Part shown: positions 45,013 through 61,995 of the stretch, one piece after another
How positions within the stretch are numbered: position 1 is the first letter of the stretch
Layout of the letters: each line of letters begins with the position of its first letter
Assembly: GCA_000310025.1 (NCBI GenBank)
Contig: FN649744.1
Location: 1,408,504-1,472,503, forward strand
DNA length: 64,000 nucleotides
From: Ectocarpus siliculosus
Taxonomy: Eukaryota > Sar > Phaeophyceae > Ectocarpales > Ectocarpaceae
Direction: 5' to 3'
The notes under the pieces: model-generated
What the model was told of the DNA's origin: nothing
The model's input: the letters and a program-made list of their open reading frames with translations, nothing else
Database searches by the model: none
Position numbers and translations under genes: made by a program

Positions 45013-45296
45013 TGTTATGGAGGGACAGAGGAATAAAAGAGTGAAGAGAGCAAATTCGTTGCTCCTGGCTTTTCGGGTACTCACAGTTGTTGTTTGATCT
45101 CTTGTTATAGCCCTCTTAGACCAGGTCCGCTTAGCGCCCACTCGGAGAGTGAGGGATCGGGGCTGGGAATTTGATCTTCCTTCAAGCCACTTCGCCAAAT
45201 ATCCATATCCAAAGAAAATTCAAAACATCCAGTAAGCGCTCATACAACGTTCATGAAACGCTCGTACAATGCTCATACACTAGTTGCTCCATTACA
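45013..45296 (-). repeat. 3' LTR of G1
   Basis: Pairs with 52746-53045; shares TCACAGTTGTTGTTTGATCT, TTAGACCAGGTCCGCT and GCTCGTACAATGCTCATACA. Minus-sense upstream bases CTCAGGGTGGGCTAA are the probable polypurine tract. Confidence 0.85.
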
Positions 45297-45679
45297 TTAG
45301 CCCACCCTGAGAAGTCGTAGATCAGATGCAGATACTTTATCTTCAATCCAATACTCAACCTCAAAGAAAGATCCAAGATGCGACTTTCAAAATCAGACAA
45401 AAATAAGATAAAACAAAAGCAACTAGGGTCGGAGAAAATAGTTTATCCCCGACAAATACTCCAAACCATCCCCACACCACACAGTAATGACTACTGAGAA
45501 TCACATTGCCAACGGCGGAACCAGTCTGAATGAAAACGGGGTTCGGTCGCGTTGGGCACGCAAAGGTTGGGGTGACTATTATAACAATAGAAGAAGCTCA
45601 CACCACCCAAACACGCGCTAGCTTACCACTGCGTACGATGTAGGACAAAACAGAAAAAAACATGTAGCGGCCCGTAGGC

Positions 45680-47362
45680 GGCATGATATCAAAGCACAGA
45701 TCCAGATGGGGCAACAGCCAGCTGTGCCACAACTCCTGGTGTTCGCGACGTAACGCCATCATCCGTGGAAGGGTTGGTCAAACCACGAGTACGGTGTTTT
45801 TGCAAGCACCAAGAACCGCAAGGAGCATCCAAAACCGTGGAGTAACTGTACTCCGGGAGAGAAAGCTGTCGAGGGCCAGGGGTGTCCAAAATCGAACAAT
45901 GTACTGGCCTGTTACGAAACTACAAATAATCTGCCCAAGCCACCAAAGTCCATCCAAAGCTTTGTACCAAATGTGGGCTCCGACAGGCAAAACAGAAACA
46001 AAGAAGCGAGCCAACCAAGTGTCACGCGAGACCAATTCGTACTCGGGAGCAATGAAACGTTAGGCCTGATTCCGAGCAAGTTCTCGGTCGGCCGAAGCTA
46101 TCCGAGCTTTACGGTAAGCTCGGTTTCCTTGTGCGCGCTGACTAGCGTTACCAGACCAGTAAAGCAAAATGTGTTTTCTGTATTCCTGCAAATCGGACCC
46201 CCTTTCCCACGACGGTGTCAACAAACCCATCCAATGAGTCAACTACAAGACGGCTACCACACCACCGCGTCCACGTACAATTTGGTGTACCGAAATATTC
46301 TCAACATCCAGACGACTAGACTCCGCTAAAATATCATCAGAAGTCAAATTATGCGGGGGAGGCTTGTTGCTATACGAGTGCAAAACATATTTCGACAGAT
46401 TGGCCGGCATATACTTAGGCAGATCATCCGTGTCGTGTAGGTTGGTATACGGTTTGCACCGCAAGACTGAGACACGGTTGCGAGATTCTGTTCCCAGCAT
46501 GTCTGACGGCAGGTCCAAGTGGAGAAGTTTGTGCTCTACAGGTTTCCCATCCGATGAATCCTCGGCTTTGGCTGGGCCAACAGCAAGGATCTTATACGGT
46601 CCGGCGTAGTTGAGCGAAAGCTTCGCTTTGAGCACCAAATCATCGGTGTGTTTCCGCACACCCTGCCGAATAGTAGCGGCGGAGTTGTAGACCCAAGCCC
46701 AACCACCAACTTCGTACTTCGGGATCTGACGCAGACCGTCCAACAGCGCAGAGTTCCGACGTTCGACACGCGACAACGTAATCGCATGTTGTTCCCGCAC
46801 CTGGCGTTCCACCGCAAGATTGCAGAAAGCGAGCTGGTCTCGATCCAAACTTTGATGGCCACCCACGCTGGGGTGGTCCAAATAGAAAGCGGGAGACGGG
46901 GCAACCGTCCAATATTCACTTCATTTGGCGCCAAACCTGTGGCGGTGTTTACCGAGTTGTTGTACGCAAACTCGACATGGGAAAGATGGACGTCCCAATC
47001 GTCCTGACGCTCATTGACCACAACAGCAAGCATTTGAGCCATAGTGTGGTTAACACGCTCGGCCCCACCGTTAGTTTGGGGGTGGTACGAACTGGGGTGA
47101 CTTTCTTGATCTTCATCAGCTCGTAAACAGCCATGGACACCTTGGAACTAAATTGCATACCGTTGTCCGAAAGAAGAGTCGCAGGACAACCCCACAGCGC
47201 CATGTATCGGTTGACGAACATGTTAGCCGTTCCCTTAGCGGTAAATTCCGCCTTGGTAGTGGCATACATATCCGCCCGTCGACTGAAACGATCCGTAAAC
47301 AAAAGTATACATGCATTCCCACTGGACGTAACCGGCAATAGCCCCAAAAAATCGACGCTCAC
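45680..47362 (-). pseudogene. G1 integrase core, C-terminal and Tudor-like regions
   Basis: Integrase core DDE: ILLFTDRFSRRADMYA, ATLLSDNGMQFSSK, then after a frame change GGAERVNHTMAQML. Downstream come GLAPNEVNIGRLPRLPLSIW, the tether with AGPYKILAVGPAK and VSVLRCKPYTNLHDTDD, and the start of a chromodomain (VENISVHQIVRGRGGVVAVL). Further on (45778-46035) is LPVGAHIWYKALDGLWWLGQ, the same Tudor-like module as in element G2. At least three frameshifts break the chain, so no full product is made from this copy. Confidence 0.75.
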
Positions 47363-48227
47363 TCCAATACCCGGCCCATTCGGGAGGGGCAGAGTGAGCG
47401 TAGGCCAGCGATCGATACGTTTCCCGGGAAGTCTTGCGCGCTTGACAAGTTAATGAATGCTGAAGCCACCAACGAACGGACAAGTCCATCCCAATCCACC
47501 AGAAAAATCCCTCCAATATACGTAAAGTCCGAGCGGTGCCCAGGTGAAAAGACGCGGTGGCGTGACATGCTTGTAGTACCCAAGGTCGCAACAGCATAGG
47601 CACGTATATGCGCGGAGACTTCGAAGGCGGGAGGCGAGTGATACGCCCGCCAGAACTACCAAGAGGCAGTGGGGCAAAAATTCGCACCAACAATCGCGTA
47701 CCATCGTCTGTGTGCAGGCATGTTTTAGATGCGAGGGCGACAACATCAGACAATGCCGGCCGTCGTGCACAGGGCAAGCATTCCCAAAATGTATCCGGCA
47801 AAACCGCCGGGGATCCCAAAGACAAAAAATGTATAGCCGCCACACACTCGCTTTCCGACAGTTGTTCTCGGGCCCAATCGGCATGCGAGAATGCATGCAC
47901 ACAGTCGCGGAGGTGAGCTTCCTCAGCGGCCATGGGCGGCACCACGGGAGCCGCAGGGCTAGAACCCGCGGGCGACAACACTGGCGGCGTGGGCGCCGCG
48001 GGCGGCGGTGGCGCCGGGGTGGCGGCAGCAGGCGCGGGCGGCGGCGGCAGCGGCGGCAACTCAGCCGGCGCCGAAGAAGGCAGCGGGCCAGAAGTAAGGC
48101 TACCCACGGCTCTCGTAGACCGCGCGGCACCGCTCGACCGGGCCGGCGTTCGAGGAGGCCGCGGCGTTCTGGGCACCACAACGGCCCGTGGTTGTTTCGG
48201 AAAATAATTGGGACGGCTGTGAGCCAT
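47235..48227 (-). pseudogene. G1 Pro/Ala-rich linker and integrase zinc-binding domain
   Basis: Starts right after the poly(A) of the inserted SINE. A Pro/Ala-rich linker is followed by HADWAREQLSESECVAAIHF and the integrase N-terminal zinc region around MLLRPWVLQACHATASFHLG, TARTLRILEGFFWWIGMDLS and HSLTCQARK. A frame change near 47360 leads into the integrase core. Confidence 0.7.
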
Positions 48228-48537
48228 TTTTTTTTTTTTTTATCTTCACTTCAAATCAGCGCTCACAGCACTAGTGCCGTTTTTTCCAATCCGTGGTCAC
48301 ACAGAAGAGCCTCTCTCTACCCTCCCCTCCTGCGGTACTTCGCCTTCAATTTTTAATGCGAGAAGAGTTCAGCACTCTCTTCCCTCTGTGTACACACGAA
48401 CTAGCGCTATCCACTTGGCCAGGAGCGGAAGCGAGAGAAAAACTCACTTTGCAAGAAATGCTCGCCTACGCCGGGATTCGAACCCCTGACTTGACCTCTA
48501 GAAGGTTACGAGGCTACCAACTAGACCACACCGGGGC
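48227..48537 (-). mobile_element. tRNA-derived SINE inserted in G1 pol
   Basis: About 310 bp on the minus strand: a tRNA-like head beginning GCCCCGGTGTGG, with a perfect box A (TGGTCTAGTTGG, 48517-48528) and box B (GGTTCGAATCC, 48474-48484) 32 bases apart, a unique body, and a 15-base A tail (48227-48241). The acceptor ends do not pair, so it is not a functional tRNA gene. It separates RNase H from the integrase linker. I see no clear target duplication. Confidence 0.8.
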
Positions 48538-50518
48538 AACCGGCATTGGGTATGCCCGAGGCCGAATTCGTTCTCGCCCCGAGTACGAGAAAAAATCAGA
48601 GGGCCACGCGAAAGCGACCGGGCAGCTGAGGAGGTTCCGACGGTGGACGAGGGAGCGACGTCTGGCTCCGCAGAAACGGAAGCCCGAGGAGGTCCATCGG
48701 GCACAGAACTCTCGGGGGGCTGCATCGCATACGACAGCGAAAACACCAGGAGGCGAAAATTTCGACGAGTCAACTATGGAGGAGGGCGACGGAGCCGGCA
48801 GGACCATGTGCGGCCCAAAACGGCGGAAGTCCCAAAAGTCATCCTCCGTCAAAGGCGCGTGTGCCAACGCGTCTCGTTGATCGTCAATGTCAAGCCCACC
48901 CAAGCCGATGTTCGGCGTCGAACTAGAGTGATGACTCCGTCCGCACGCACGAATGAGATAAACGCCCGCGGCGTCATCGACTGCGATACTGGTGTCACCG
49001 TGTCTATCCGCGTCGGTCGCCGGCAAGGGCAACCGCGAAAGAAAATCCGTTTTTGCTTTGGCAGTGCCTTTGCGGTAGACAAGGATGTAATTGAACGAGG
49101 AAAGGAACTCGAGCCAACGTTGGACGCGGGCGTTGTGTTCACCCACCTTGACGATGCTCTCCAAACCCTTGTGATCCGAATAAATCAGAAAGTGCGTAGA
49201 CCATTAATAACCGCGTAGGCGTTTGATTGCCCACACGATACTTCCAGCCTCCAAGTCGAGCACTGTCCAACTGCGCTCGGATTCGAGCGTAGCGCGGCTA
49301 ACGAACAGAATGGAACCATCGGCCTGTTCCTGTTCAAGGGCCGCACCAAAACCATCCACACAGGCGTCACAGCAAAGCCGGAGAGGGCGGCTGCCATCGG
49401 CGACATTGTCCCAATGCGGGAAAGCCAAAACCGGTGGTTCGGACAGTTTCGCCAAGAGTTCTTTGACAGTATCCGCCATAGCCGGCGTAAAACAAAACTT
49501 CGCGTCCTTACGCAAAAGGTCTGTGAGTGGTTTCACGCGCATGGCCAAACCCTTGATGAATTTGCGGTAATACGAAAGCCCACCCAGCAAGGAACGCAGC
49601 TTCTTGACGTTGTTGGGCAGCGGCATTTTGTGAGGGCTTCGACCTTATCGGCACGAGGACTAACGCCCGCAGGGGAGATGGTGTGACCTAAATTTACAGC
49701 CTCCTTAGCGCCGACGCGACTCTTGAAAGGAGAAAGCTTGGGGTTGTACTTGCGCAAACGCTCCAAAAATAACCGTATGTTGGCGACATGGTGGATGGGG
49801 TCGGCGTCAAACACAATCACATCGTCCAGGTATGCAAGCACATGGTCCAGACCTTTAACCACTTCGTTGACGACCATGGTGAACCACGACGGTGCCACGG
49901 AGCTTCCCTGAGGCATACGGAGCCACTCGAAAAGTTGCGTGGGCGTACAAAACGCCGTAAGCTGAGCCGTGTCCTCTTCGACGGTGATCTGGTGGAAAGC
50001 GGAGTTAAGATCGAAAACGGAAAACACCTTGCCCTTGTGCAGGGAATCGATGATGTAGTCAACTCGCGGCTGCGGTTGTTGGCCAAGGCTGCACAACTTG
50101 TAAAGCTTTTCGTAGTTCACGGTCAAACGCAGGTTGCCGTCCTTTTTAGGCATGACCACCAGAGGGCTCGCCCACGGCGATTGCGATTGCTGAATAACAC
50201 CGACAGCAAGGTATTGATCGAGAATTGAATCGACCGTTCTCTACCAGAGGGTTGAGCCTATAGGGACGCGAGGCCAACGGTTTCGTGCCCGGGGGCACTT
50301 CCAAACGAAACGGTTTCACGGAACAGCAACCGAAATCGGACGGTGACCGCGAAAACACATCCATCCGAAAAGTCACACAGCACATCCGCCAGGCTGTTGA
50401 TGGCTTCCGGGGTCCAACCCGAGTCATGTATATCAAAAGTGGCATCGTGCAAATGGGCAGGCAAACGTTGCCACAACTCGCGAAAGCTCACTCGCTGCGC
50501 TTCTGAGAGGCGTTCCAA
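48514..50518 (-). pseudogene. G1 reverse transcriptase and RNase H
   Basis: RT segments in order: a lead-in helix region (ERLSEAQRVSFRELWQRLPA), MPKKDGNLRLTVNYEKL, FSVFDLNSAFHQITVEEDTA, LFEWLRMPQGSSVAPSWF and the catalytic AYLDDVIVFDA, followed by connection and RNase H with LLGGLSYYRKFIKGLA, LCCDACVDGFGAALEQEQ and SRATLESERSWTVLDLEA. The chain crosses several frames (breaks near 50450, 50155, 49620 and 49200). Motifs match Ty3/gypsy RTs, with about half the residues shared with G2. Confidence 0.8.
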
Positions 50519-50657
50519 CAGGTCCGGTGCGGTTTCGGCGGCAGTGAGGCCGCGGGATAGCCCGACATCTCCGGATCCGCAACCGGGATGTTCGAATGCA
50601 AAGAATTCACACGAGACGGCGGCCCATCCTCGGAACGGGCTGGCGGCGGAGGGTCAC

Positions 50658-51852
50658 TCAACCCAACGCCCTCGGTCGTCTGCAGTGTAGGATCAATCGA
50701 CGCAAGCGGAATCTGCACAAGTGGGCAGTCGCCACTCCAAGCACCTCACCTGGCTCCAACTCGGCGCAACCTGTCAGTGGGATGTGTTGAGGCCCGTCCG
50801 AAACAAACGCGTCCGACGCCGAGAGGGCGCCGTGTTTCGGTAAAAACGTGACAAGAGAGTTACCGGTGACAGCGGGAGTGCCAGAGTTGCGAACGAGGTT
50901 CACCCTCGTCAAAATGGGTTTATCGGAAAGGGAGACACCCTTCCTGCCGACGTACCGCAGGAAGTAAGATGACCCTGGGGCGGAGGGTCCAGCGACATAC
51001 GCGGAAGCTCCCGCCGCAAAATCCGATGACAGAGAAATTTTCTCCATAATGCGTCCACTCGCCGACCGCGTGGGCAAAGTAGTGGGTGGACAAACGAGAG
51101 TTAAAACGCATCCAACTATCACGTCCAAAAAGGAGGGCGTGACCCATGGCGGCAGCTGGGACAACATAAACCCACACCGCTAATGACGCGGTGGCACTAT
51201 CACCATAAAAAAAATGAACGGACAGCCGCACGGATGAGGTGGTTTCAAGAGCATTGCCAGAGCCAAAACCACCCCACTGCCGAACGGGCACCGAACGACG
51301 ACTGTGGACAGATGCAGCTCCTGACGCCTCCATGGCTTCAAGAAAAGCATCACTAATGAAAGATGGAGGTGAGCCCGAGTCCAAAAGGGCTACACCAGGC
51401 GCTGTACACACGGCTCCGGTACCACTATGCACACGGACTCGCGTCGTAGAGGTATCGCAATCTACTAAAACATCACCGCTCACCAAATCTGGGCCGTGTT
51501 CCGCCAACAGCGGCGGTGGGGAAGCGGCGGCTTCGCGAAAAGCAGCAGAGGCAATGTGCAGCACCTGTTTCGAGTGGTCCGCGGGCGTGTTGGCTGGCAC
51601 TTCCAGCGGGCCACGCGCGTCCTCGGGCGAGGAATCATTGGCCGAAGAGTCCTCACCCGGGGGCGCAATTTCGTGTATAGTGGGACACACGGGGGCAGGT
51701 TGCCCCGAGTGTTCAGGGCGTAAAAGGCTTATCGGGTTTGACTGGGCGTACACGCAGAAGCGTGCGCGTCGCAACAAGCGCTTTGCCCAAGAGGTTTTTA
51801 CCAGTCCACTTGGAGGGCGACGCCGCACGCGGATCGAAGGCATCAACACCAA
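50658..51852 (-). pseudogene. G1 aspartic protease and following unknown domain
   Basis: 50920-51852 encodes a retropepsin-like protease: the catalytic turn in GVALLDSGSPPSFIS, then ALLFGRDSWMRFN (the hydrophobic-GRD block). After a frame change, 50658-51167 encodes a domain of about 90 residues with FLRYVGRKGVSLSDKP, TRVNLVRNSGTPAVTG, AFVSDGPQHIPLTG and AELEPGEVLG. Element G2 has the same domain in the same place. The first 30 codons overlap the NADAR frame. Confidence 0.75.
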
Positions 51853-52546
51853 TGCCCCACAATCCGTCAGAAGGACTGGCCTCCGCTATCTGTCTATCAC
51901 CCGTAGCCAACAACCGTTGACGCCCGTCAGCATTTTGGGCGAATTTTGCATACAAAAGCGAAAAGACAACATCCTCGCGTCGGAGCTCCCATAGAGCATC
52001 GTCAAAACCGCGTACCTTGCGACCAAGGGACTTGTGTTCTCTCGGGTCGGAGGTAGCCATGATTTTGGCATAAGCGGCATCATCGCCGAAAATGCGGGCT
52101 TTCTCCGCCATCATGAACTGTTCGCCGCACTCGTAGCGAATGCCATGAACCGAGAACTCACAGGGCGTCCAGTTAGACAGAAAGGACGGCGGTTTCCAAA
52201 AGAGGAAAACCTCATCGTTATAGTATTCCTGACAACCGTCAAAAACAAGGGCCTGCTGCGCGGGTGCGCTTACCTTCCCCGAAGAAATATCGTCAAGAGA
52301 AATGGCACCGGCAACCGGCAGGACAATCTGGGTGCCACCCGAAGGCGGGCCGGATTGTGGGTTACGAGGAGAGGCAGGCAAGAGCGGTGAACCAGCCGCA
52401 GAAGCGTGTGAAACCAAGCGGTCTACGCGGGCGTTTTCGCGCAAAACGTCGGCGTAGGCCCGTTCATTGAAAGCGGCCTTCATCGCGGGCGCTCGACCAA
52501 CATGGCCAGCGGCCGCGGGAGGCTCGGGACCGCTATTTCGTGACAA
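51713..52546 (-). CDS. NADAR-domain protein in the gag position of element G1
   Basis: A 277-residue intact frame, the first gene after the PBS. Residues 1-110 are Ala/Pro/Ser-rich and resemble nothing I know. Residues 112-265 form a complete NADAR (YbiA-like) domain: FLSNWTPCEF, YECGEQFMMAEKARIFGDD, SLGRKVRGFD, YAKFAQN, LLATGDRQIAEASP, LWGIG and KNLLGKAL, all in the usual order and spacing. The Glu of the EQFMMAEKA motif and the WGIG and NLLG blocks, thought to bind the ADP-ribose or substrate, are present. Family members act on N-glycosidic or ADP-ribosyl guanosine bonds. No capsid domain or zinc knuckle is seen. The protease frame overlaps its end by 140 bp in the +1 frame. Confidence 0.9.
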   Translation of the reverse strand: MSRNSGPEPPAAAGHVGRAPAMKAAFNERAYADVLRENARVDRLVSHASAAGSPLLPASPRNPQSGPPSGGTQIVLPVAGAISLDDISSGKVSAPAQQALVFDGCQEYYNDEVFLFWKPPSFLSNWTPCEFSVHGIRYECGEQFMMAEKARIFGDDAAYAKIMATSDPREHKSLGRKVRGFDDALWELRREDVVFSLLYAKFAQNADGRQRLLATGDRQIAEASPSDGLWGIGVDAFDPRAASPSKWTGKNLLGKALVATRTLLRVRPVKPDKPFTP

Positions 52547-52732
52547 AGAACATGAACCTTCCGGTCTGGGGAAAACACTTCAAAACAAAAAGTGCCCTAC
52601 CGAGTGAGTCAGAGAGAGAGCAAAACCGTGCCCTCTCTAAAACCAGGTAACTAAAAAAATCGAGAGGACTAAAATGCGAGACGTTCACGCGAACGATGAG
52701 CACCGAAGCGAAGGACCGGTGTCCAAATGCCA

Positions 52733-52742
52733 GACGACGCCA
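52733..52742 (-). promoter_or_regulatory. Primer-binding site of G1
   Basis: Minus-sense TGGCGTCGTC-TGGCATTTGG starts three bases inside the 5' LTR. Element G2 has nearly the same sequence at the same place. TGG matches the CCA end of a tRNA; the tRNA species is not identified. Confidence 0.65.
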
Positions 52743-52745
52743 CAA

Positions 52746-53045
52746 TGTTATGGATGAACAGAGAAATAAAAGAGGGAAGGGAGCAAGTTCGTTGCTCCTG
52801 GCTTCGGGTACTCACAGTTGTTGTTTGATCTCTTGTTTTAGCCTTGTTAGACCAGGTCCGCTCAGCGCCCACTCGGAGAGTGAGGGAGCGGGGCTGGGAG
52901 ATTGATCTTCCTTCAAGCTACTTCAATACCCCTCAACGACGCCAAATATCCATATCCAAAGGAAATTCAAAATATCCAAGGTAAGCGTTCATACAACGTT
53001 CATGGAACGCTCGTACAATGCTCATACACTAGTTTCTCCATTACA
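52746..53045 (-). repeat. 5' LTR of G1
   Basis: 300 bp, TG...CA ends in minus sense, with a short insertion (TACTTCAATACCCCTCAACG region) relative to the 3' LTR. Confidence 0.85.
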
Positions 53046-53395
53046 GCGCGGTGCGGTGCGGTNNNNNNNNNNNNNNNNNNNNNNNNNGCGGTGCGGTTTA
53101 ACCGCACCGCACCGCACCGCACCGCACCGTGACATTTCGAGATGGAAAAACCCGCACCGCACCGCACCGTCAAATGTCGAGATGCACCGCACCGCACCGC
53201 ACCACGGTGCGACGAAACCGCACCGCAACGCACCGTAAGGATTAACAAATAGCCGTAGTTGCGTTTTTTTTACGGTGCGGTTTGCCCCACCCCGCAGCCA
53301 AAACCGCAGTACACCGCGATAAAAACCGCAGTAAACCGCGGTAAAAAACGCAGGTAAGGTACGGTTTTGTCGTGCAGACACACACACCAGGAACT
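53046..53395. repeat. GCGGT-rich repeat (repeat C), copy 2, with an assembly gap
   Basis: Starts at the LTR end with GCGCGGTGCGGTGCGGT, then 25 N (53063-53087), then (GCACC)n with TTTCGAGATGGAAAAA spacers and the same end block as copy 1 (CCGCGATAAAAACCGCAGTA, then CA repeats). The true length is unknown because of the gap. Confidence 0.7.
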
Positions 53396-53755: not shown

Positions 53756-54060
53756 TGTAATGGTATTTGACCCCTTCAGAATCAATCACCTTTGAGCTGT
53801 GTAGAACTCTCTTGTCAGACCACAGTAGCAGGTTGTTGTTGCTTTCCGTTGTTCTCTTTCTCTTGATTAACGCTTTCCAAGCCAACTCACAATATCCCAC
53901 GCACACACGATCAGGGATCGTCTGTACGCACACACTGAACAGAAGGGCACATGTCTCGGCATAAAGCCCTGATCTAGCATGACGTCACGTCTTACCATCC
54001 GACGGCGCCAAATAATCATGATCAACCACGATCACATGTCTACCTCCAAATACCATAACA
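53756..54060 (-). repeat. 3' LTR of G2
   Basis: 305 bp; contains GACGTCACGTC (CRE-like) and shares nearly all sequence with 61136-61434. Confidence 0.88.
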
Positions 54061-55032
54061 AAAGCCCTCCCTGAGTGGTCGTAGATGCAGATACAGAAGC
54101 AAACCTCGAAGGGACTCTAGTCAATCAAGAGGATTGCGGGATGGATCGAAGATGCGACAACTCACAACCCTCACCCGCACCTCTCCGTTAACCAAACCAA
54201 AGAAGCGGAACCAAGAAAGAAGAAAACAAAGAAGCCGGGGCGGCAAACTCGGCAGATAAAATCGGGAAAAGGCACATGGGTGCGAAAAATAACCAAAACA
54301 TCCGAACCGAAAAGACCATAACATAACACGAAGTAACGAAATCGTGAAGAGAAAATCACACACGATCTCGCACGAATGAACCGATCGAATACGCAATCAA
54401 GTAAGCCAGAACCTTACGGGAAGTGGGGCTACGATGCTTGCGATCGGGGTGGGGCGAGGAAAACAATCTTACTTGGACGTCAAGGCCAATCGCATGAAGA
54501 AAAATGCTAAAGAAAGTAGCAAGATGGAACACGTTGGCCGTGGCATGCAATAGAAGCACTGGCGGAACGTTGGACAATAAAATATGCAAACCACGCCATA
54601 GGGGGGGGGGGGGAGTTAAACGATGCACCAAATTTGGGTGTCACCGCAACTAATGACGAACCTAGGCCGCATTGAAAAAGAGGGAAAGGGGAGCGAAAAA
54701 CTTTCGACAACCGACCGAGAAGTGGCAAACGGGGGCGAGAAAGTACGCAACACAAAAGCAAGAGCCAGTCTCAAAGAGATTCAGAGGGTGAGCGGAAAGC
54801 ATAAAGGAGCAATAGCCAGTCTCAAAATATACGAGAGGGCGAGCTAGACACATAGAGAAGCAACAGCCAGTCTCAAAAATAGATCGAGAGGGCGAGCTAG
54901 AAACATACAGAAGCAATAGCCAGTCTCGAAAATAGATCGAGAGGGCGAGCTAGAAACATACAGACAAACATACATCAACACAAACATATACACATACATA
55001 CACATACACATAAAACAAGGGCAACAGTCCTA
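54061..55032 (-). other. 3' non-coding part of G2 with 54-bp tandem units
   Basis: No coding sequence. 54755-54963 holds four units of about 54 bp, each with AGCCAGTCTCAAA, GAGAGGGCGAGC and TAGAAACATA. The left end shares CTGAG-GTCGTAGAT-CAGATAC with the corresponding end of G1. Confidence 0.6.
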
Positions 55033-55865
55033 TCAGGCATCTATAGCCGTACCACGCGACTCGTCTACAATGCGCAAGATACCTCGCATGAAGGGACTAC
55101 TTCGGTGCAGCTGAAGGCACCAAGAACCACAAACAGCTCCCAAAGCTGTCGTGTAGCGCGAAGGGGAGAGGGTGATCTTGACAGGTCCAGGGTCATCCAG
55201 GAAGCGAACGAAGAAGACGTTTGTAGTTGGAGTATGTCCGGAGATTTTCCCTAGCCACCATAGAGCGTCTTGAGCCTTGTACCAGAAGTGTGCGCCAACA
55301 GGCAGCAAGGTGTTGCGAAAACGGCGGGCCGAAACATCGCGGGGAACATATTCGTACCCAGGCGACGAGGACCGCTCGCCTTTGGTGCGAGACAGTTCAC
55401 GTTCCGCTGCGCCAATGCGCATGCGACGATACAGACGGTTAGTCTGCCGGTGTTGGTCGGGTGTACCAGCCCAATACAGAAGAATCTGTTTTCGGGAGTG
55501 TCGGAGGTCCATTTCTCGTTCCCACGAGGGGCGCATAAGACCTTTCCAGTGGGTCTCGTACATGACTGCGATGACGCCGCCACGTCCTCGAACCGACTGG
55601 TGTCCCGTGGTTCTCTCAACCTCGAGCCTGCGGACAGGCGCCGAACCATCGTCCGCGGTAGCATGGTTCGGCGGAGACTTCGTCGTGTAGTTATTGAGAA
55701 CATACGGCGTGAGGCCTGCAGGCAAGAATCGAGGCATGTCGTCACTATCGTGTGCGTTCGCACACGGTTTGCAACGAGCGACAGAAACTCGGTGCTTGGC
55801 ATCCACTCCGGGCATATCGGAGGGAAGATCCAAGTACAGGAGCTTGTCAGCCACCGGGCTGCCAT
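55033..55865 (-). CDS. G2 integrase tail: chromodomain and Tudor-like module
   Basis: 273 residues from the Met at 55854. Residues 20-50 hold the integrase tether (HRVSVARCKPCANAHDSDDM). Residues 77-128 are a chromodomain: LEVERTTGHQSVRGRGG, VMYETHWKGLMRPSWERE, ILLYWAG. Such domains can steer integration to marked chromatin. After a basic helical stretch (RLYRRMRIGAAERELS), residues 183-250 form a compact aromatic-rich module: LLPVGAHFWYKAQDALWWLG, VFFVRFLDDPGPVKITLSP, GSWCLQLH. Its strand-turn pattern recalls Tudor/Agenet folds. The same module ends element G1. The upstream part is joined to the integrase by a frame change near 55900. Confidence 0.75.
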
Positions 55866-55914
55866 CGGGAGCCTTGTTGCAAGGACCGACTGCGAGGGTT
55901 TTAAAAGGACCTGT

Positions 55915-56840
55915 TCAATTCAAGGACAGATTCTTCTTGAGTACCTGGGAGTCAGCGTCTGCGCGGGCCTTGGAAGTGAGTTTGGCACCTTGGCGGATGG
56001 TAGCCAAACGGTTGTAGACCCGCACCCAACCACCGGTAGCGTAAACGGGTAGTTTGTGTAAGGCATCAGACAGTTTCGAGTTCCGCCTTTCCATACGGGA
56101 AACTGTGAGTGCGTGTTGTTCACGCACTAGCACGTAGGAGCGCCGTTGCCGATCGGCGGCAAGTTTGCAATACTCGAGCTGATCGCGGGCAAGCGACTGG
56201 TGACCACGAGCGTAAATGTTGTCAAAAACGGTCAGTGGAAACCTGGGAAGGCGCGCCATATGCACCTCATTGGGCGCCAATCCTGTGGCAGCGCTAACGG
56301 AGTTGTTGTACGCGAATTCAACATGAGGGAGATGAATGTCCCAATCATCTTGTCGTTCGTTGACAACCATAGCCAGCATCTGGGCCATGGTGTGGTTCAC
56401 GCGCTCAACTCCTCCGTTGCCGCTAGGGTGGTACGCGCTCGTTGTAATTTTTCGGACGCGTAGCAATTTTAGGATGGCAACCGAAAGTTTGGAGCAAAAC
56501 TGCAATCCGTTGTCAGAAAGAATGCTGAGGGGCATCCCCAAACAGGCATGTATTTATTGACAAGGACGTCAGCTGTACCTTCAGCTGTGAACTCGGCGTC
56601 AGTCACGGCGTACATATTGGCTCTCCGACTGAAACGGTCAGTGAATAGCAAAATATACGAGAAACCTCGCGGAGTTGTGGGAAGCGGACCAAAGTAGTCG
56701 ACGCTAATCGCGATCCCTGGTGCCGAAGGCAGAGGGATCGCGAGGATCGGCCAGCGAGTAGCTGGCGCGCAGTTTTGCGGGCCTGACATTTCAAACATCA
56801 CCGAATCCACCAACGAGTACTGATACTCATCCCAATCCAC
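55915..56840 (-). pseudogene. G2 integrase catalytic core
   Basis: Core motifs in order: AISVDYFGPLPTTPRG, LLFTDRFSRRANMYAV (first Asp), then after a one-base shift near 56540 LSILSDNGLQFCSK (second Asp) and YHPSGNGGVERVNHTMAQML (Glu). Downstream: QDDWDIHLPHVEFAYNN and GLAPNEVHMARLPRFPL. A single break separates the two halves. Confidence 0.75.
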
Positions 56841-58156
56841 CAGTAAAACCTCTCAAGCAAGCTAAGCGTGCGAGCGGTACCAAGGTGGCAGAGGGCGTTG
56901 GCATCACAAGCTTGCATGACCCAAGGTCGCATTAACATGGGCACGTAAATACGAGTGGGTTCGTCATTCAACAGACGTGCAGCTCGTCCTCCGGGACGGT
57001 CAGAAGAGATCGGGGGCTTGGTATTTTTTCGTACCAAGAGGCAAAGGCCATCGTCAGTGACGAGGCGTCCTTTATCTGCAAGCTCTCGAATATCCTCCAA
57101 CGATGGTCTATGCCTGGAGTGATATGACACTCCGGCAAAGAAATCGACAGGTAGACTCTGAGGGCGTTTGAGGATAATGTAGCGGATGGTGGCTTCACAC
57201 ACCGGCTCTTTCTGCTGTTCCCGCGCCCAATCGGCACGCGTGTAGCGTTCGACGGACTCACGGAATTCTAACTCTGCAGGATTGAGGACCATGGAATCCA
57301 CTGCGGGCGCTGTCTTACGAGATGCAGCAGCCGGTTGTGAGGACCCGCAGGTGCGTCGGTAACCGTCTCCGGCGGCGCTATGGGCACCGTTGGGACAGGT
57401 TCGACAGCCTACAGGCGTGGTGCCAGCTGGCGTCACTCGTGTTTGACGACGAGAAGCGCCTGCAGCGGCAGCTGCACGCGGAGCGTGTGGGGGGATCGAC
57501 AAATCAGGACCGAAACCGTAGTTTACATCGGGTAGAGGCTGACCCGCAGCAGCCGCGGTTCTGCGACGCGTACGAGTAGAGATTAGTTCCGACAGATCAA
57601 TGCGATGCGGTTGCAACCGAGAGGTCGAAGGCGGCGGCAATGAGTCGGCGGCATCCAAACGATCAGAGTGGGAGCCGGCGTCGACAGTTGCTGTCGCAGG
57701 AGACAAGACAGGGGGCAACCGAGAGTTATCGTCGGCGGTCTGTGTGTCTTGGATAGGGAGCGCAAATTCAGCTGTATCCGTGTGGGGTCGCGCGTATGGT
57801 CCGTAAACCGTGGCGGTGTCCCTATACAATGGTCTCATCGGAGACACAACAGGAGAAGCTGAAGATCGGAGTGCCGGCACAGCGCCCTGTTTTTTGTGGG
57901 TTGCAGCGGAAATAACCTCAGGCACAGCAAATACGGAGTGTTCGGTGCAAGACAATGCACGATCGTCCGCAAGGTGTCGCAAAGGTCCTCGCGCATTGAC
58001 GTACGGAAAAGCACGAGCGACGAATTCTCCTGCAGGAGCATCAAGGTCGTCAATCCTCATTCGAGGCCCGTGTTTGCGAAAATCCGCAAAATCATCGGAA
58101 GCGAGCGGTAGCCCACCCAAAGGGACGTTCTCGCTCGGGGGCGCCAGCCCACCCAA
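56798..58156 (-). CDS. G2 linker and integrase zinc-binding domain
   Basis: An intact 452-residue frame. The first 300 residues are an Ala/Pro/Arg/Thr-rich linker rich in RP and TP pairs, unlike other gypsy elements. It is followed by YTRADWAREQQKEPVCEATI, a helical region, and YVPMLMRPWVMQACDANALC, HLGTARTLSLLERFYWWIG, the first half of the HHCC zinc finger. Confidence 0.7.
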   Translation of the reverse strand: MGGLAPPSENVPLGGLPLASDDFADFRKHGPRMRIDDLDAPAGEFVARAFPYVNARGPLRHLADDRALSCTEHSVFAVPEVISAATHKKQGAVPALRSSASPVVSPMRPLYRDTATVYGPYARPHTDTAEFALPIQDTQTADDNSRLPPVLSPATATVDAGSHSDRLDAADSLPPPSTSRLQPHRIDLSELISTRTRRRTAAAAGQPLPDVNYGFGPDLSIPPHAPRAAAAAGASRRQTRVTPAGTTPVGCRTCPNGAHSAAGDGYRRTCGSSQPAAASRKTAPAVDSMVLNPAELEFRESVERYTRADWAREQQKEPVCEATIRYIILKRPQSLPVDFFAGVSYHSRHRPSLEDIRELADKGRLVTDDGLCLLVRKNTKPPISSDRPGGRAARLLNDEPTRIYVPMLMRPWVMQACDANALCHLGTARTLSLLERFYWWIGMSISTRWWIR

Positions 58157-58177
58157 ACCAACGCCAAGCGTGGTTTG

Positions 58178-59951
58178 TCAGGGTGATGCGTGACCTGTCG
58201 CTCGGATCAGATACACACCAACGTCTTCTGGGGACGTCAAACTACTGTTACCGTTGATGTCGGCGGCAGTAGGCTCAATCGGCAGACGAGACAGCATGTC
58301 AGCATTTCCGTTGGAGGCACCTCGTCGGTACTCCAACGTGTAGCTGTATGCTTCAAGGAACTCAATCCAGTGTTGGACGCGTGGGTTGTGCTCGCTAATT
58401 TTAGACAAACTTTCCAGCGCCTTTTTTGTCGGAATAGATGCGGAAGTGTATGCCACGAAGGTATTCGCGGAGACGCTTGATCGCCCATACAACGGCTCCT
58501 GCTTCGAGATCGAGAGCGGCCCAGTTGCGTTCAGCGTCGAGCGTGGCTCTGCTGATGATAACGATCGGCCGTACCGAGCCGTCTTTCTGCTCTTGCTCCA
58601 GCGCGGCGCCGAGACCGTCCGAGCTGGCGTCACAGTAAAGACGTAAAGGGCGTGTACCGTCCGCGATAGCGTCCCAATCAGGAAACACTAAAATGGGCGG
58701 TTTCGCGAGCTCAGTCAGTAGGCTGCGAACAGTTGTTTCCATGTCGCTCGTGAAAGCGAAGGGAACACCTTTTTTTAGCAAGTGCGTAATGGACTTCACA
58801 CGCTTGGCCATGTCTCTGAGGAAACGTCGGTAGTAGCTCAGACCACCCATGAGTGACCTGAGTTGCTTGACGGTCGTAGGCATGGGCATACCTGCCAGGG
58901 CGGCTACTTTACGGGCGTTGGGGAGGACACCTTTCGAAGATATGGTGTGCCCCAAGAAGTCGGCCTTGGTGGTACCGATGGTGGCTTTCGAGGGAGAAAG
59001 TTTGAGATCGTAGTTTCTCAACCGTTCGAAGAGCGTGCGCATATTACGGACATGCTGCGGCGGGCCTTCGTCAAAAACAACGACGTCATCGAGGTATGCC
59101 TCGACTCCATCGAGTCCTTTGATTACTTCGTTAACCACTTTTACAAAGTGGCCTGCGGATTGGCTAGCACCCATCGGCATGCGTAGCCATTCGAACAAAC
59201 GAGTGGGGGTCGCAAAGGCCGTAAAGGGGATAGTGTCCTTGTGGGCAGTGATCTGGTGGAAGGAACCCATAAAATCGAATAGCGAGAAAACCGAACCTCT
59301 GTTGAGCTTCGTTAGAATCTCGTCGACTCGGGGAATGGGAAGTTGACCAAAGCTGCTGATATGGTTCAACTTTCTGTACTTAACCGTGATGCGTATTCCA
59401 CCAGACTTCTTTGGTAAAACCACGATGGGGCTGGAATAAGGAGAGGTCGAGTGCTGAATTAGGTCCAAAATGACATCGACTTGCTTTGCAACCAAAGGAT
59501 TCATACGGTACGGTTTGGACGTCACAGGGGGGCAATCCGGAGGTACTTTAATCTCAAACGGCATCAGGGAACAGAACCCTAAATCCGTCGAGGATGTGGA
59601 AAACACGTCTTGGAAATCATGCAAAAGATCACCAAGTTCTGTGATGCCCTCTGGTGGCCAACCAGAACCGTGTAAATCAAACTTAACCAACTTCAGGTGA
59701 GGCGGCAAGCGATTCCACAATGACTCAAAGCTAGCTCTCCGATCAGCGCTCAACCGCTCCATCACATGCTGTGGTGGCGGCGAGGGCGAAGTGTGAGCGG
59801 GGGCAAGGGCCGCAGGGGATGATTTCCCTGGGTCCGGCACAGGAGGATCGGTGGATCGTAGGTTGTGCACGAAGGGATCGTGGCAACGCACCTGCGGATC
59901 GACGTTCCTGTCCGCGTTATCCTCGGTAGAACCCAAAATAGGTCCAGGCAC
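58178..59951 (-). CDS. G2 reverse transcriptase and RNase H
   Basis: 58401-59951 is an intact 516-residue frame. RT motifs: VLPKKSGGIRITVKYRKLN, FSLFDFMGSFHQITAHKD, LFEWLRMPMGASQSAGHF and catalytic AYLDDVVVFDE, then LGHTISSKGVLPNARKVAAL. RNase H: LRLYCDASSDGLGAALEQE, SRATLDAERNWAALDLEAG. The frame then shifts near 58410 and continues to 58178 with ISEHNPRVQHWIEFLEAYSY and ADMLSRLPI, the end of RNase H. Confidence 0.85.
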
Positions 59952-60283
59952 CGAACATGAAGTATCAGCTTCGTCACAACACTGTTGTTCAAAATGCTCG
60001 GGACGCGCATCAGCGGGGCGGCAGCAGTACCGAGCAAGTCTCGTGGCTCAAGTTCTGCAGCACCCGCGAGCGGCACAAACCGACGTCCGTCGGAGACAAA
60101 GATTTCTTCGTTCGACGAAACATCATGCAACATGTCGACAAGGTATTGAGCGGTCAGAGCCGGTGTACCGTTGGAACGTACGAAGTTGACCTCAATCATT
60201 TGGTAGTCGTCTGACAATGAGGTACCCGTTGGCCCTGCATAACGTAGCTGGAATCGGTCCGCCGGGGCTGTGAAATCGGGCAC
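59762..60283 (-). CDS. G2 unknown domain between protease and RT
   Basis: Encodes FQLRYAGPTGTSLSDD, VNFVRSNGTPALTA, IFVSDGRRFVPLAG and AELEPRDLLG, the same 90-residue domain as in G1. No known family comes to mind. The end of this frame overlaps the RT frame. Confidence 0.6.
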   Translation of the reverse strand: MPDFTAPADRFQLRYAGPTGTSLSDDYQMIEVNFVRSNGTPALTAQYLVDMLHDVSSNEEIFVSDGRRFVPLAGAAELEPRDLLGTAAAPLMRVPSILNNSVVTKLILHVRCLDLFWVLPRITRTGTSIRRCVATIPSCTTYDPPILLCRTQGNHPLRPLPPLTLRPRRHHSM

Positions 60284-60322
60284 ATACGCGACCGCACCAG
60301 AATCATCCTGGTGGGCAAGCGT

Positions 60323-61134
60323 TTATTCACCAAAAACGCGATTGTCCAGTGGCCTCGGAGGCAACATACGGTATGTGCGAGTGTTAAATCGCATGAAACT
60401 ATCGCGTCCCAATAGGATGGGAAACTGCATGGTGTTTGCAGGGACGATGTGCGCCCAAACGGCAAGAGAAGCCGAAGGCGTATCACCGTGGAAAAATTGC
60501 ACACTCAGACGGACTGTATCAGACGTCTGAAGAGACTCGGATTTACCAAAACCTCCCCAAGAACGTGCGTTACCGTGCGAGATGCCTCTGAGATGGCTCT
60601 CATGGCTTTGAGGGTACCGACCGCGTTGCTGTTGATGAACGTGGCCGGTGATCCTGAATCGAGCAGAGCGGCGCAACCATATTGTGATTTGGCTGGCCCA
60701 GCGTGGATTTTGACTCGAGTCGTAAATGAAGCGTCGTCAACTGTAACAACACCACCTACGAGGCAAGGACCATGCTCAGCGAGCAACGGTACACGATCTT
60801 CCTCATTATACTCAGCGGACGTAACCGCGAGAACTTCAGCACTGTGATCCCTTGGAACATGCGCTGATTTTATGCGGTAACCTGACGACGGGGCGGCCTC
60901 CGCGGCGGCAGCCGTCGAAATACGCTCTTGCGTTTCAGGGCTAACCTCATGTATTGTATTCCGGAGCTGAGCGTCGGACGAAACTTGTGGTGGAAGTGTC
61001 GGCGTCGGCGCGTGGTCTCGGAGTAGGTCTCGAACAAACTGCAGGCTTTTGCCCAGCAGATTGGAGCCCCGCCATAAAGAGGGTTGGATTGCAGCAGGAT
61101 CATCCGCGCGATGTCCAATGCCCCGACGACGCCA
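60323..61134 (-). pseudogene. G2 NADAR remnant fused in frame to protease
   Basis: Directly after the PBS, residues GIGHRADDPAAIQPSLW, RGSNLLGKSLQFVRDLLRD (61015-61122) match the last 35 residues of the G1 NADAR domain. The same frame runs on through NTIHEVSPETQERIS to the protease turn CAALLDSGSPATFIN. A frame change near 60600 leads to FGKSESLQTSDTVRLSVQFF and FPILLGRDSFMRFN. So NADAR and protease belong to one polyprotein here, and about 120 residues of NADAR plus any leader have been deleted up to the PBS. Confidence 0.75.
61115..61134 (-). promoter_or_regulatory. Primer-binding site of G2
   Basis: Minus-sense TGGCGTCGTCGGGGCATTGG begins one base inside the LTR and matches the G1 site at most positions, supporting use of the same tRNA. 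Confidence 0.65.
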
Positions 61135-61135
61135 G

Positions 61136-61434
61136 TGTAATGGTGTTTGACCCCTTCCTTCAGAATCAATCACCTTTGAGCTGTGTGAAACTCCACAGTA
61201 GCAGGTTGTTGTTGCTTTCCGTTGTTTTCTTTCTCTTGATTAACGCTTTCCAAGCCAACTCACAATATCCCACGCACACACGAATCAGGGATCGTCTGTA
61301 CGCACACACTGAATAGAAGGGCACATATCTCGGCATAAAGCCCTGATCTAGCATGACGTCACGTCTTACCATCCGACGGCGCCAAATAATCATGATCAAC
61401 CACGATCACATGTCTACCTCCAAATACCATAACA
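61136..61434 (-). repeat. 5' LTR of G2
   Basis: 299 bp, partner of 53756-54060, followed by the ATTA duplication. Confidence 0.88.
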
Positions 61435-61694
61435 ATTATATATATCCCAACAACAGCAGTAGTAGTAGTAGAAGCAAGTGAGGAATGTAGCTCGTGTTGT
61501 AGGAACGTATGGTGACTGGGAAAACGAAGGAAATGATCAGTAGCTTCTCCTTTGTCTGAGGTTTTCGGGTTTTCTGACCGCAAGCCGCGGGATTGGTCGT
61601 GTCGGCCTCACTCATTTCAATGGAACCTAACGTATTCCACGACAAAAAAAAATCATGGAGACCCCGTCATTTTGTGACGGACAACCGTAGTATT

Positions 61695-61995
61695 CTCCGC
61701 GGTGTTCTTCGACGGTGCACCACCGCCAAGGCCGCGGTTCGAGCGATTTTTGTCACGAGGTAGAATAAACCGCACCGTCAAAAAAACGTGCGACGGTGAA
61801 CCGCATCGCACCGTACCGTCAAACTTCGAGATGAAAAAAAACGCACCTTGCCGCACCGTCGAATTTGGAGATGATAAAAACCGCACCGCACCGCACCGTC
61901 AAATATCGAGATGAAAAAAACTGCACCGCACCGCACCGTGACCTTGTCAAGATACAAAAAAGCCGCACCGCGGTGCGGTTCCACACCGTCAACAT
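61695..61995. repeat. GCGGT-rich repeat (repeat C), copy 3
   Basis: About five units of roughly 42 bp, each with CCGCACCGCACCGTCAAA, TTCGAGATGAAAAAA or a close variant; a partial palindrome CCGCACCGCGGTGCGG closes it. Confidence 0.65.

Follow-up and report, generated by a model that had tools for sequence, protein, structure and literature searches.

The window analysed here is a stretch of 64,000 nucleotides of the brown alga Ectocarpus siliculosus (contig FN649744.1). Its minus strand carries an element, G1 (45013–53045), that is bounded by long terminal repeats (LTRs) with 87% identity over 302 columns and contains protease, reverse transcriptase (RT) and integrase regions (Table 1). A preliminary description of this DNA had reported an open frame of 277 residues between the LTR and the protease and RT; both the frame and its location hold. 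The protease region lies in two other frames and is marked by an LLDSGSP motif, read by eye, and by a Pfam match to RVP_2 that is below the cut-off (E = 0.011). The integrase region was recognised from direct repeats shared with a second element in the window, in which the integrase core match is weak (Pfam, E = 0.015). A short stretch after the LTR, the presumed PBS, is common to G1 and another copy of the lineage, L024. G1 also contains a high-copy interspersed repeat that looks by eye like a SINE, with an oligo-A tract and motifs resembling the A and B boxes of tRNA genes; ARAGORN called no tRNA within it, and all 40 places scored in a genome search (1365 first-look candidates) are 96–100% identical to it. 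Arrays rich in GGTGC repeats lie beside the elements at 53060–53250 (partly masked as N) and 61800–61980.

Table 1. Features of element G1 and of the second element in the window
Feature	Positions	Strand	Basis or remark
5′ LTR of G1	52746..53045	-	87% identical to the 3′ LTR; 90.6–94.3% identical to the LTRs of L009, L024 and L025
5′ leader of G1, presumed PBS retained	52575..52745	-	Its end is the deletion junction; 22 other places match this side only
Truncated N-terminal Pol piece holding NADAR	51713..52546	-	277-residue open frame from the TTG start of the preliminary description; 90% identical to the Pol piece of L024
NADAR domain (residues 116–265)	51752..52201	-	PF08719, AlphaFold2, Foldseek
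Aspartic protease region of G1	50907..51804	-	Two other frames (frameshifted); weak RVP_2 match; LLDSGSP motif
Reverse transcriptase of G1	49533..50159	-	PF00078, E = 4e-26
Interspersed repeat inserted in G1	48300..48560	-	tRNA-like SINE by eye
Integrase region of G1	46888..47612	-	Similarity: 75% and 73% in direct repeats shared with that region of the second element
3′ LTR of G1	45013..45296	-	LTR pair comparison
Second element, same lineage (family D)	53756..61435	-	LTRs 53756–54061 and 61136–61435
NADAR C-terminus remnant of the second element	61018..61122	-	PF08719 positions 130–163, E = 5.7e-4, below cut-off

The 277-residue product carries a NADAR domain, as the preliminary description had recognised. 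PF08719 matches residues 116–265 with E = 4.1e-47 and 161 bits (cut-off 35) and is covered from position 2 to 163 of 163, that is, as a whole domain. Sequence searches of the PDB returned the NADAR protein of Phytophthora nicotianae (8BAU, E = 1.2e-20) and Escherichia coli YbiA (2B3W, E = 3.6e-6), and no others. In the AlphaFold2 model, residues 111–270 have block means of pLDDT between 90 and 98, and Foldseek matched the domain to 8BAU (E = 2.8e-12); by sequence and by fold, these two proteins, which have the same fold, are the closest solved structures. The N-terminal part is different in kind: block means for residues 1–100 are 43–65, with one long helix (residues 28–50) at a pLDDT of about 65. 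This low-confidence model suggests that residues 1–110 are mostly disordered and form no capsid. Pfam found no Gag family in the product, in agreement with the earlier statement that no capsid motif is visible; the accompanying proposal that residues 1–110 serve as a minimal capsid finds no backing in the model.

Comparison with other copies indicates how this arrangement arose. When the junction between the 5′ leader and the Pol piece of G1 was used as a genome probe, 40 of 62 first-look candidates were scored, and the full span was found in one place, G1 itself; among the other 39 places, 22 match the leader side only and 17 the pol side only. In sister copies the two sides are separated by about 5.5, 5.7 and 5.7 kb (on C3, C5 and C8; for example, C8:1346251–1346421 and C8:1340426–1340520), with outliers from 2.4 kb (C36) to about 13 kb (C16), whereas in G1 they adjoin. 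Judged by these copies, a stretch of about 5.7 kb that contained gag has been deleted from G1 between the leader and the N-terminus of pol. The start of Pol, MSTPPGG... in L024 and similar in the Ectocarpus protein P0001, is missing from G1. NADAR and protease share one frame in L024 and occupy different frames in G1, in which a frameshift before the protease ends the 277-residue frame. The apparent order of LTR, NADAR gene and protease is therefore a product of decay, and the frame that had been described as intact is a by-product of the lost pol start and the frameshift. For the same reasons, the TTG start used in that description is probably not a real start.

Two further copies have lost their 5′ regions. 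L024, with LTRs that are 97.3% identical, has a different gag-less junction, at which the presumed PBS runs directly into sequence immediately ahead of the pol start. Of 136 first-look candidates for this junction, 40 were scored and one spans it. We considered whether the junction could have come from a spliced pol RNA that was retrotransposed; inspection by eye showed no clear splice sites. The second element in the window (LTRs 92.9% identical; RT–RNase H at 58401–59951) lacks gag and most of NADAR, and its 5′ LTR lies about 10 bases from a NADAR remnant that has 97% DNA identity to the family D copies L018–L020, which hold the whole domain. The three 5′ deletions end at different points. 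Because the junctions of G1 and L024 differ and each is spanned in only one scored place, they are apparently separate deletions, and the idea that the two copies represent an amplified gag-less subfamily is not supported.

We searched the genome (189.5 Mb, 492 contigs) with the NADAR domain and found at least 150 matches, all above the Pfam cut-off; the count is a lower bound, because 150 of 230 first-look candidates were scored. From these, 20 places were hand-picked, not drawn at random, for inspection as 10-kb loci, and in 19 of them NADAR is followed by RT on the same strand. The exception, L015 (C3:3905000–3914900), has NADAR and protease only. In several copies, a single open frame longer than 2000 residues spans NADAR, protease, RT, RNase H and integrase. 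Pfam scans of pieces found all of these domains except the protease, which was assigned by similarity and a DSGSP motif; the order in Pol is protease, RT, RNase H and integrase. In L011 the pieces carry RT, RNase H, H2C2 and the integrase core in order (core 30.1 bits, cut-off 32.6), and H2C2 and the core also occur in the C-terminal pieces of L012 and L019. Chromo matches are weak and below the Pfam cut-off (E = 0.031 in L012 and 0.014 in L019), with none listed in L011. Many NADAR copies are broken: several on the genome list have internal stops, and L016 and L025 are frameshifted.

Behind the protease of L015, where the RT would be expected, about 7.7 kb is open in all six frames, and the NADAR frame of this locus is given as 10887 codons in the genome list; the stretch is probably a tandem repeat.

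The arrangement extends beyond this assembly. Database proteins that combine NADAR and RT domains and have a species name belong to Ectocarpus sp. CCAP 1310/34, which also supplies most of the nearest named proteins, none of them identical. More distant copies of the NADAR–Pol arrangement occur in ENA contigs at about 38–46% identity, and in some of them the same protein also carries RT; one scan of viral contigs found no relatives. Among the ENA assemblies, P0128, P0131 and related proteins form clusters of up to 126 members at 42–46% identity, probably from another eukaryote; the contigs of these assemblies reach more than 1 Mb.

The preliminary description had placed NADAR in the position of gag. 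In its fullest form this reading holds that the element is a gag-less retrotransposon in which residues 1–110 act as a minimal capsid; G1 and L024 indeed have no gag between LTR and NADAR. We paired the NADAR places with gag-like matches from four genome searches with gag pieces (165 gag places: all 149 of one search and 16 others). A gag-like ORF lies upstream on the same strand within 3.5 kb in 125 of 150 NADAR places, at a median gap of 1.4 kb, and none of the 150 has such a match downstream or on the opposite strand. One further place has a gag match (C18:2857825), leaving 24 of 150 without one within 3.5 kb upstream, among them G1, L024 and C472:700940, the last at a contig end. Set against these 24 are the 125 places with the ORF, the differing and singly spanned junctions of G1 and L024 and the low pLDDT of residues 1–110, and we regard a gag-less element as extremely improbable. 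On the pairing and the junction probes, we reject NADAR in place of gag; G1 lost its gag by its own deletion. It had also been considered that other copies might have a gag and that NADAR might be a one-off insertion here. The first part is what we found, and the second does not agree with at least 150 matches.

The upstream ORF1 is gag-like by its position, a CCHC motif and conservation between families. The motif, CLNCxxxxHSxKxC, occurs upstream on the NADAR strand in 4 of the 20 10-kb loci (L009, L014, L023 and L025), most of which end before the point at which it would appear, and in 2 of 5 additional upstream stretches, L029–L033 (L030 and L032, which extend L011 and L019 in the upstream direction). 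The ORF around it is conserved: L030 has 32% identity both to L029 and to L031. Matches to zinc-knuckle families of Pfam are weak and occur in the L009 piece alone (E = 0.03–0.08); no capsid match was found in Pfam families or the PDB, and the fold model is poor (mean pLDDT 36), for which reason the label rests on the features above. A gag-like ORF with CCHC upstream of Pol characterises the lineage and is absent from G1. Gag and pol each have an ORF of their own wherever both are readable. L009 and L025 place them in different frames; L023 and L014 place them in the same frame, separated by one stop and by two, respectively. No single rule for gag–pol expression was found that fits all four. 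In L030 (2–4000, minus strand), ORF1 is open for more than 1300 codons, which is unusually large for a gag, and has a long coiled-coil-like and RS-rich part, identified by eye, ahead of the conserved gag region.

Together, these comparisons indicate that G1 is a decayed, gag-deleted and frameshifted copy of a brown-algal Ty3/Gypsy (Metaviridae-type) lineage, in which the order is LTR, gag-like ORF1 (CCHC), ORF2 (NADAR, protease, RT, RNase H and integrase) and LTR. In the living lineage, NADAR is the N-terminal domain of Pol; it looks like a lone first gene in G1 because about 5.7 kb was lost and because of the frameshifts.

We then asked what the domain may do in Pol. Thirteen positions that contact ADP-ribose or are catalytic in the P. 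nicotianae NADAR, as described in PMC11543638, were mapped onto 30 sequences (28 loci and the two window elements). Rows with stops (L001 and L027), with coverage below 80% (L026 and the second window element) or with frameshifts (L016 and L025) were dropped, which left 24 rows representing 22 distinct places with an unbroken domain (L002 and L009 are the same place, as are L007 and L020). Eleven of the 13 positions are identical in all 24 rows: E43, K50, K75, G78, R79, V81, W89, R93, E125, D130 and W133 (P. nicotianae numbering). The contact position Y84 is F throughout, and D86 varies. The glutamate at E125, which is of the YbiA type, is present in all 24 rows, G1 included, and in the two frameshifted rows that were left out; according to PMC11543638, the equivalent residue is Asp in the BC4488 type and His in the phage type.

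This pattern bears on whether NADAR has been kept as a binding or structural module for contact with RNA, NAD or protein. Such a use may have a parallel in the nematode trans-splicing factor SNA-3, which, as reported in PMC9303266, has NADARs in an RNA-processing complex, the first of which does not conserve the residues that are critical in YbiA. In the retrotransposons, however, E43, K50 and E125 are invariant in 22 places and across families whose NADARs are about 40–60% identical to that of G1, and we consider a purely non-catalytic role unlikely.

Selection was estimated from the same set without duplicates and frameshifted rows. Among pairs at dS 1–3, the median dN/dS is 0.15 in NADAR (15 pairs) and 0.11 in RT (22 pairs); at dS 0.02–0.3 the values are 0.21 (21 pairs) and 0.30 (22 pairs). 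The pairs are non-independent, and post-insertion neutral decay contributes to those within families. Saturated pairs (170 of 231 for NADAR and 102 of 153 for RT) have median pN/pS values of 0.31/0.82 and 0.28/0.82, respectively. By these estimates, NADAR is under purifying selection and is constrained about as much as RT. The chance that the domain is a functionless fragment of host origin, carried along by accident, is accordingly slight in the extreme: some copies are broken, by internal stops or, as in L016 and L025, by frameshifts, but NADAR persists in several families that diverged deeply, under a constraint (dN/dS) similar to that on RT, and in other assemblies too. The conserved active site and a dN/dS near that of RT favour an enzyme under selection over a passenger. 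Because a retrotransposon lineage keeps NADAR with an intact active site, the earlier suggestion of a function related to ADP-ribose is a reasonable one.

The substrate could instead be a small molecule, such as riboflavin intermediates or NAD-derived metabolites, processed for the metabolism of element or host. E. coli YbiA and plant NADARs are described in PMC11543638 as N-glycosidases of riboflavin-pathway intermediates, and the conserved residues do not discriminate between substrates. It is not evident to us why a retrotransposon should retain such an activity within the reading frame of its protease and RT, and we rate this possibility as quite improbable.

The origin of the domain was examined in a tree of 82 NADAR domains, 9 from window and locus rows and 73 from database proteins hand-picked among the 164 (of 182) with at least 80% coverage; labels such as retro and cellular were assigned from domain content, names and sequence. 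The 34 retro-NADARs and four proteins labelled cellular (two from Ectocarpus, one from Scytosiphon and one from EukProt) stand apart from 44 others, which are bacterial or without a species name and include the EukProt protein P0036, with support of 88/97 (not starred). A single retro clade was not rejected (p-AU 0.66). As for a direct bacterial origin, the test rejected (p-AU 0.002) a tree in which three Myxococcota NADARs join the retro-NADARs. The nearest sampled relatives of retro-NADAR seem to be cellular NADARs of brown algae, on a grouping whose support of 88/97 falls short of decisive. A probable cellular NADAR gene of the host, split over exons, lies at C24:2125206–2127003 (minus strand). 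It is related to the cellular Ectocarpus protein, and two of its stretches have 71% and 89% identity to a protein of Ectocarpus fasciculatus.

The association of NADAR with Gypsy elements is already known. According to the main text of PMC12477816 (Genome Biol 2025), Pol carries an N-terminal NADAR of the YbiA family in every family of one Ectocarpus Gypsy lineage, and RNA processing is the hypothesis offered there. That lineage, exemplified by Gypsy-12_Ec32, and G1, compared here by description, are both brown algal with NADAR at the Pol N-terminus. A chromodomain is reported at the integrase C-terminus of the former; the Chromo matches in our copies are weak. G1 differs in being a gag-deleted and frameshifted copy. 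The same text suggests a possible horizontal (bacterial) acquisition, whereas the nearest relatives in our sample seem to be cellular and brown algal. To this we add the conservation of the active site, the comparison of constraint on NADAR and RT, and the apparent affinity to cellular brown-algal NADARs. No active-site or selection analysis of retro-NADARs was found in the literature searched, including the main text of PMC12477816, and no other title on NADAR in retrotransposons was found among the matches listed.

Retro-NADAR shares its ADP-ribose-contact residues, including the YbiA-type E125, with hydrolases of the YbiA subfamily. The P. nicotianae NADAR, YbiA and the myxobacterial YbiA antitoxin of YarT (as described in PMC11125620) are cellular or belong to toxin–antitoxin systems, whereas the domain of G1 is part of a retrotransposon Pol. 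A Tx1 LINE of the Pacific oyster also places NADAR in a retrotransposon, but a non-LTR one, in ORF1, and the domain is said to be divergent (PMC12477816). RNA viruses such as Roniviridae, according to PMC11287256, carry NADAR on an RNA-based replicon, but are not retroelements.

The reading that we favour, with moderate confidence, is that G1 is a decayed Ty3/Gypsy copy and that the Pol-NADAR of its lineage is a working YbiA-type hydrolase that acts on the RNA or single-stranded cDNA of the element. In this scheme, it would remove ADP-ribose from guanine bases during replication and so keep the template copyable in the face of ADP-ribosylation by the host or of incidental damage. As reported in PMC11543638, NADARs strip ADP-ribose from guanine in single-stranded DNA, and PMC11833690 describes them as the sole hydrolase family found to reverse guanosine ADP-ribosylation of RNA. 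A genome search found four matches to PARP-like exons and no match to DarT. We infer catalysis, substrate, packaging and benefit, and the need for an eraser as well, since the host yielded no enzyme identifiable as a writer of guanine modifications.

A more specific proposal, which we put forward tentatively and think somewhat doubtful, is that Pol-NADAR is a counter-defence. Brown algae or their associated microbes would ADP-ribosylate guanine in foreign RNA or cDNA, and a Pol-NADAR captured from, or sharing its origin with, a cellular brown-algal NADAR gene would erase the mark inside the particle; host and element would then use related erasers.

Whether Pol-NADAR is a hydrolase can be addressed readily, as the domain is small and suited to an ordinary enzyme assay. 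The persistence of the active site in a selfish element whose families have diverged deeply suggests that ADP-ribosylation of nucleic acids, or another substrate of NADAR, matters for reverse transcription in a eukaryote.
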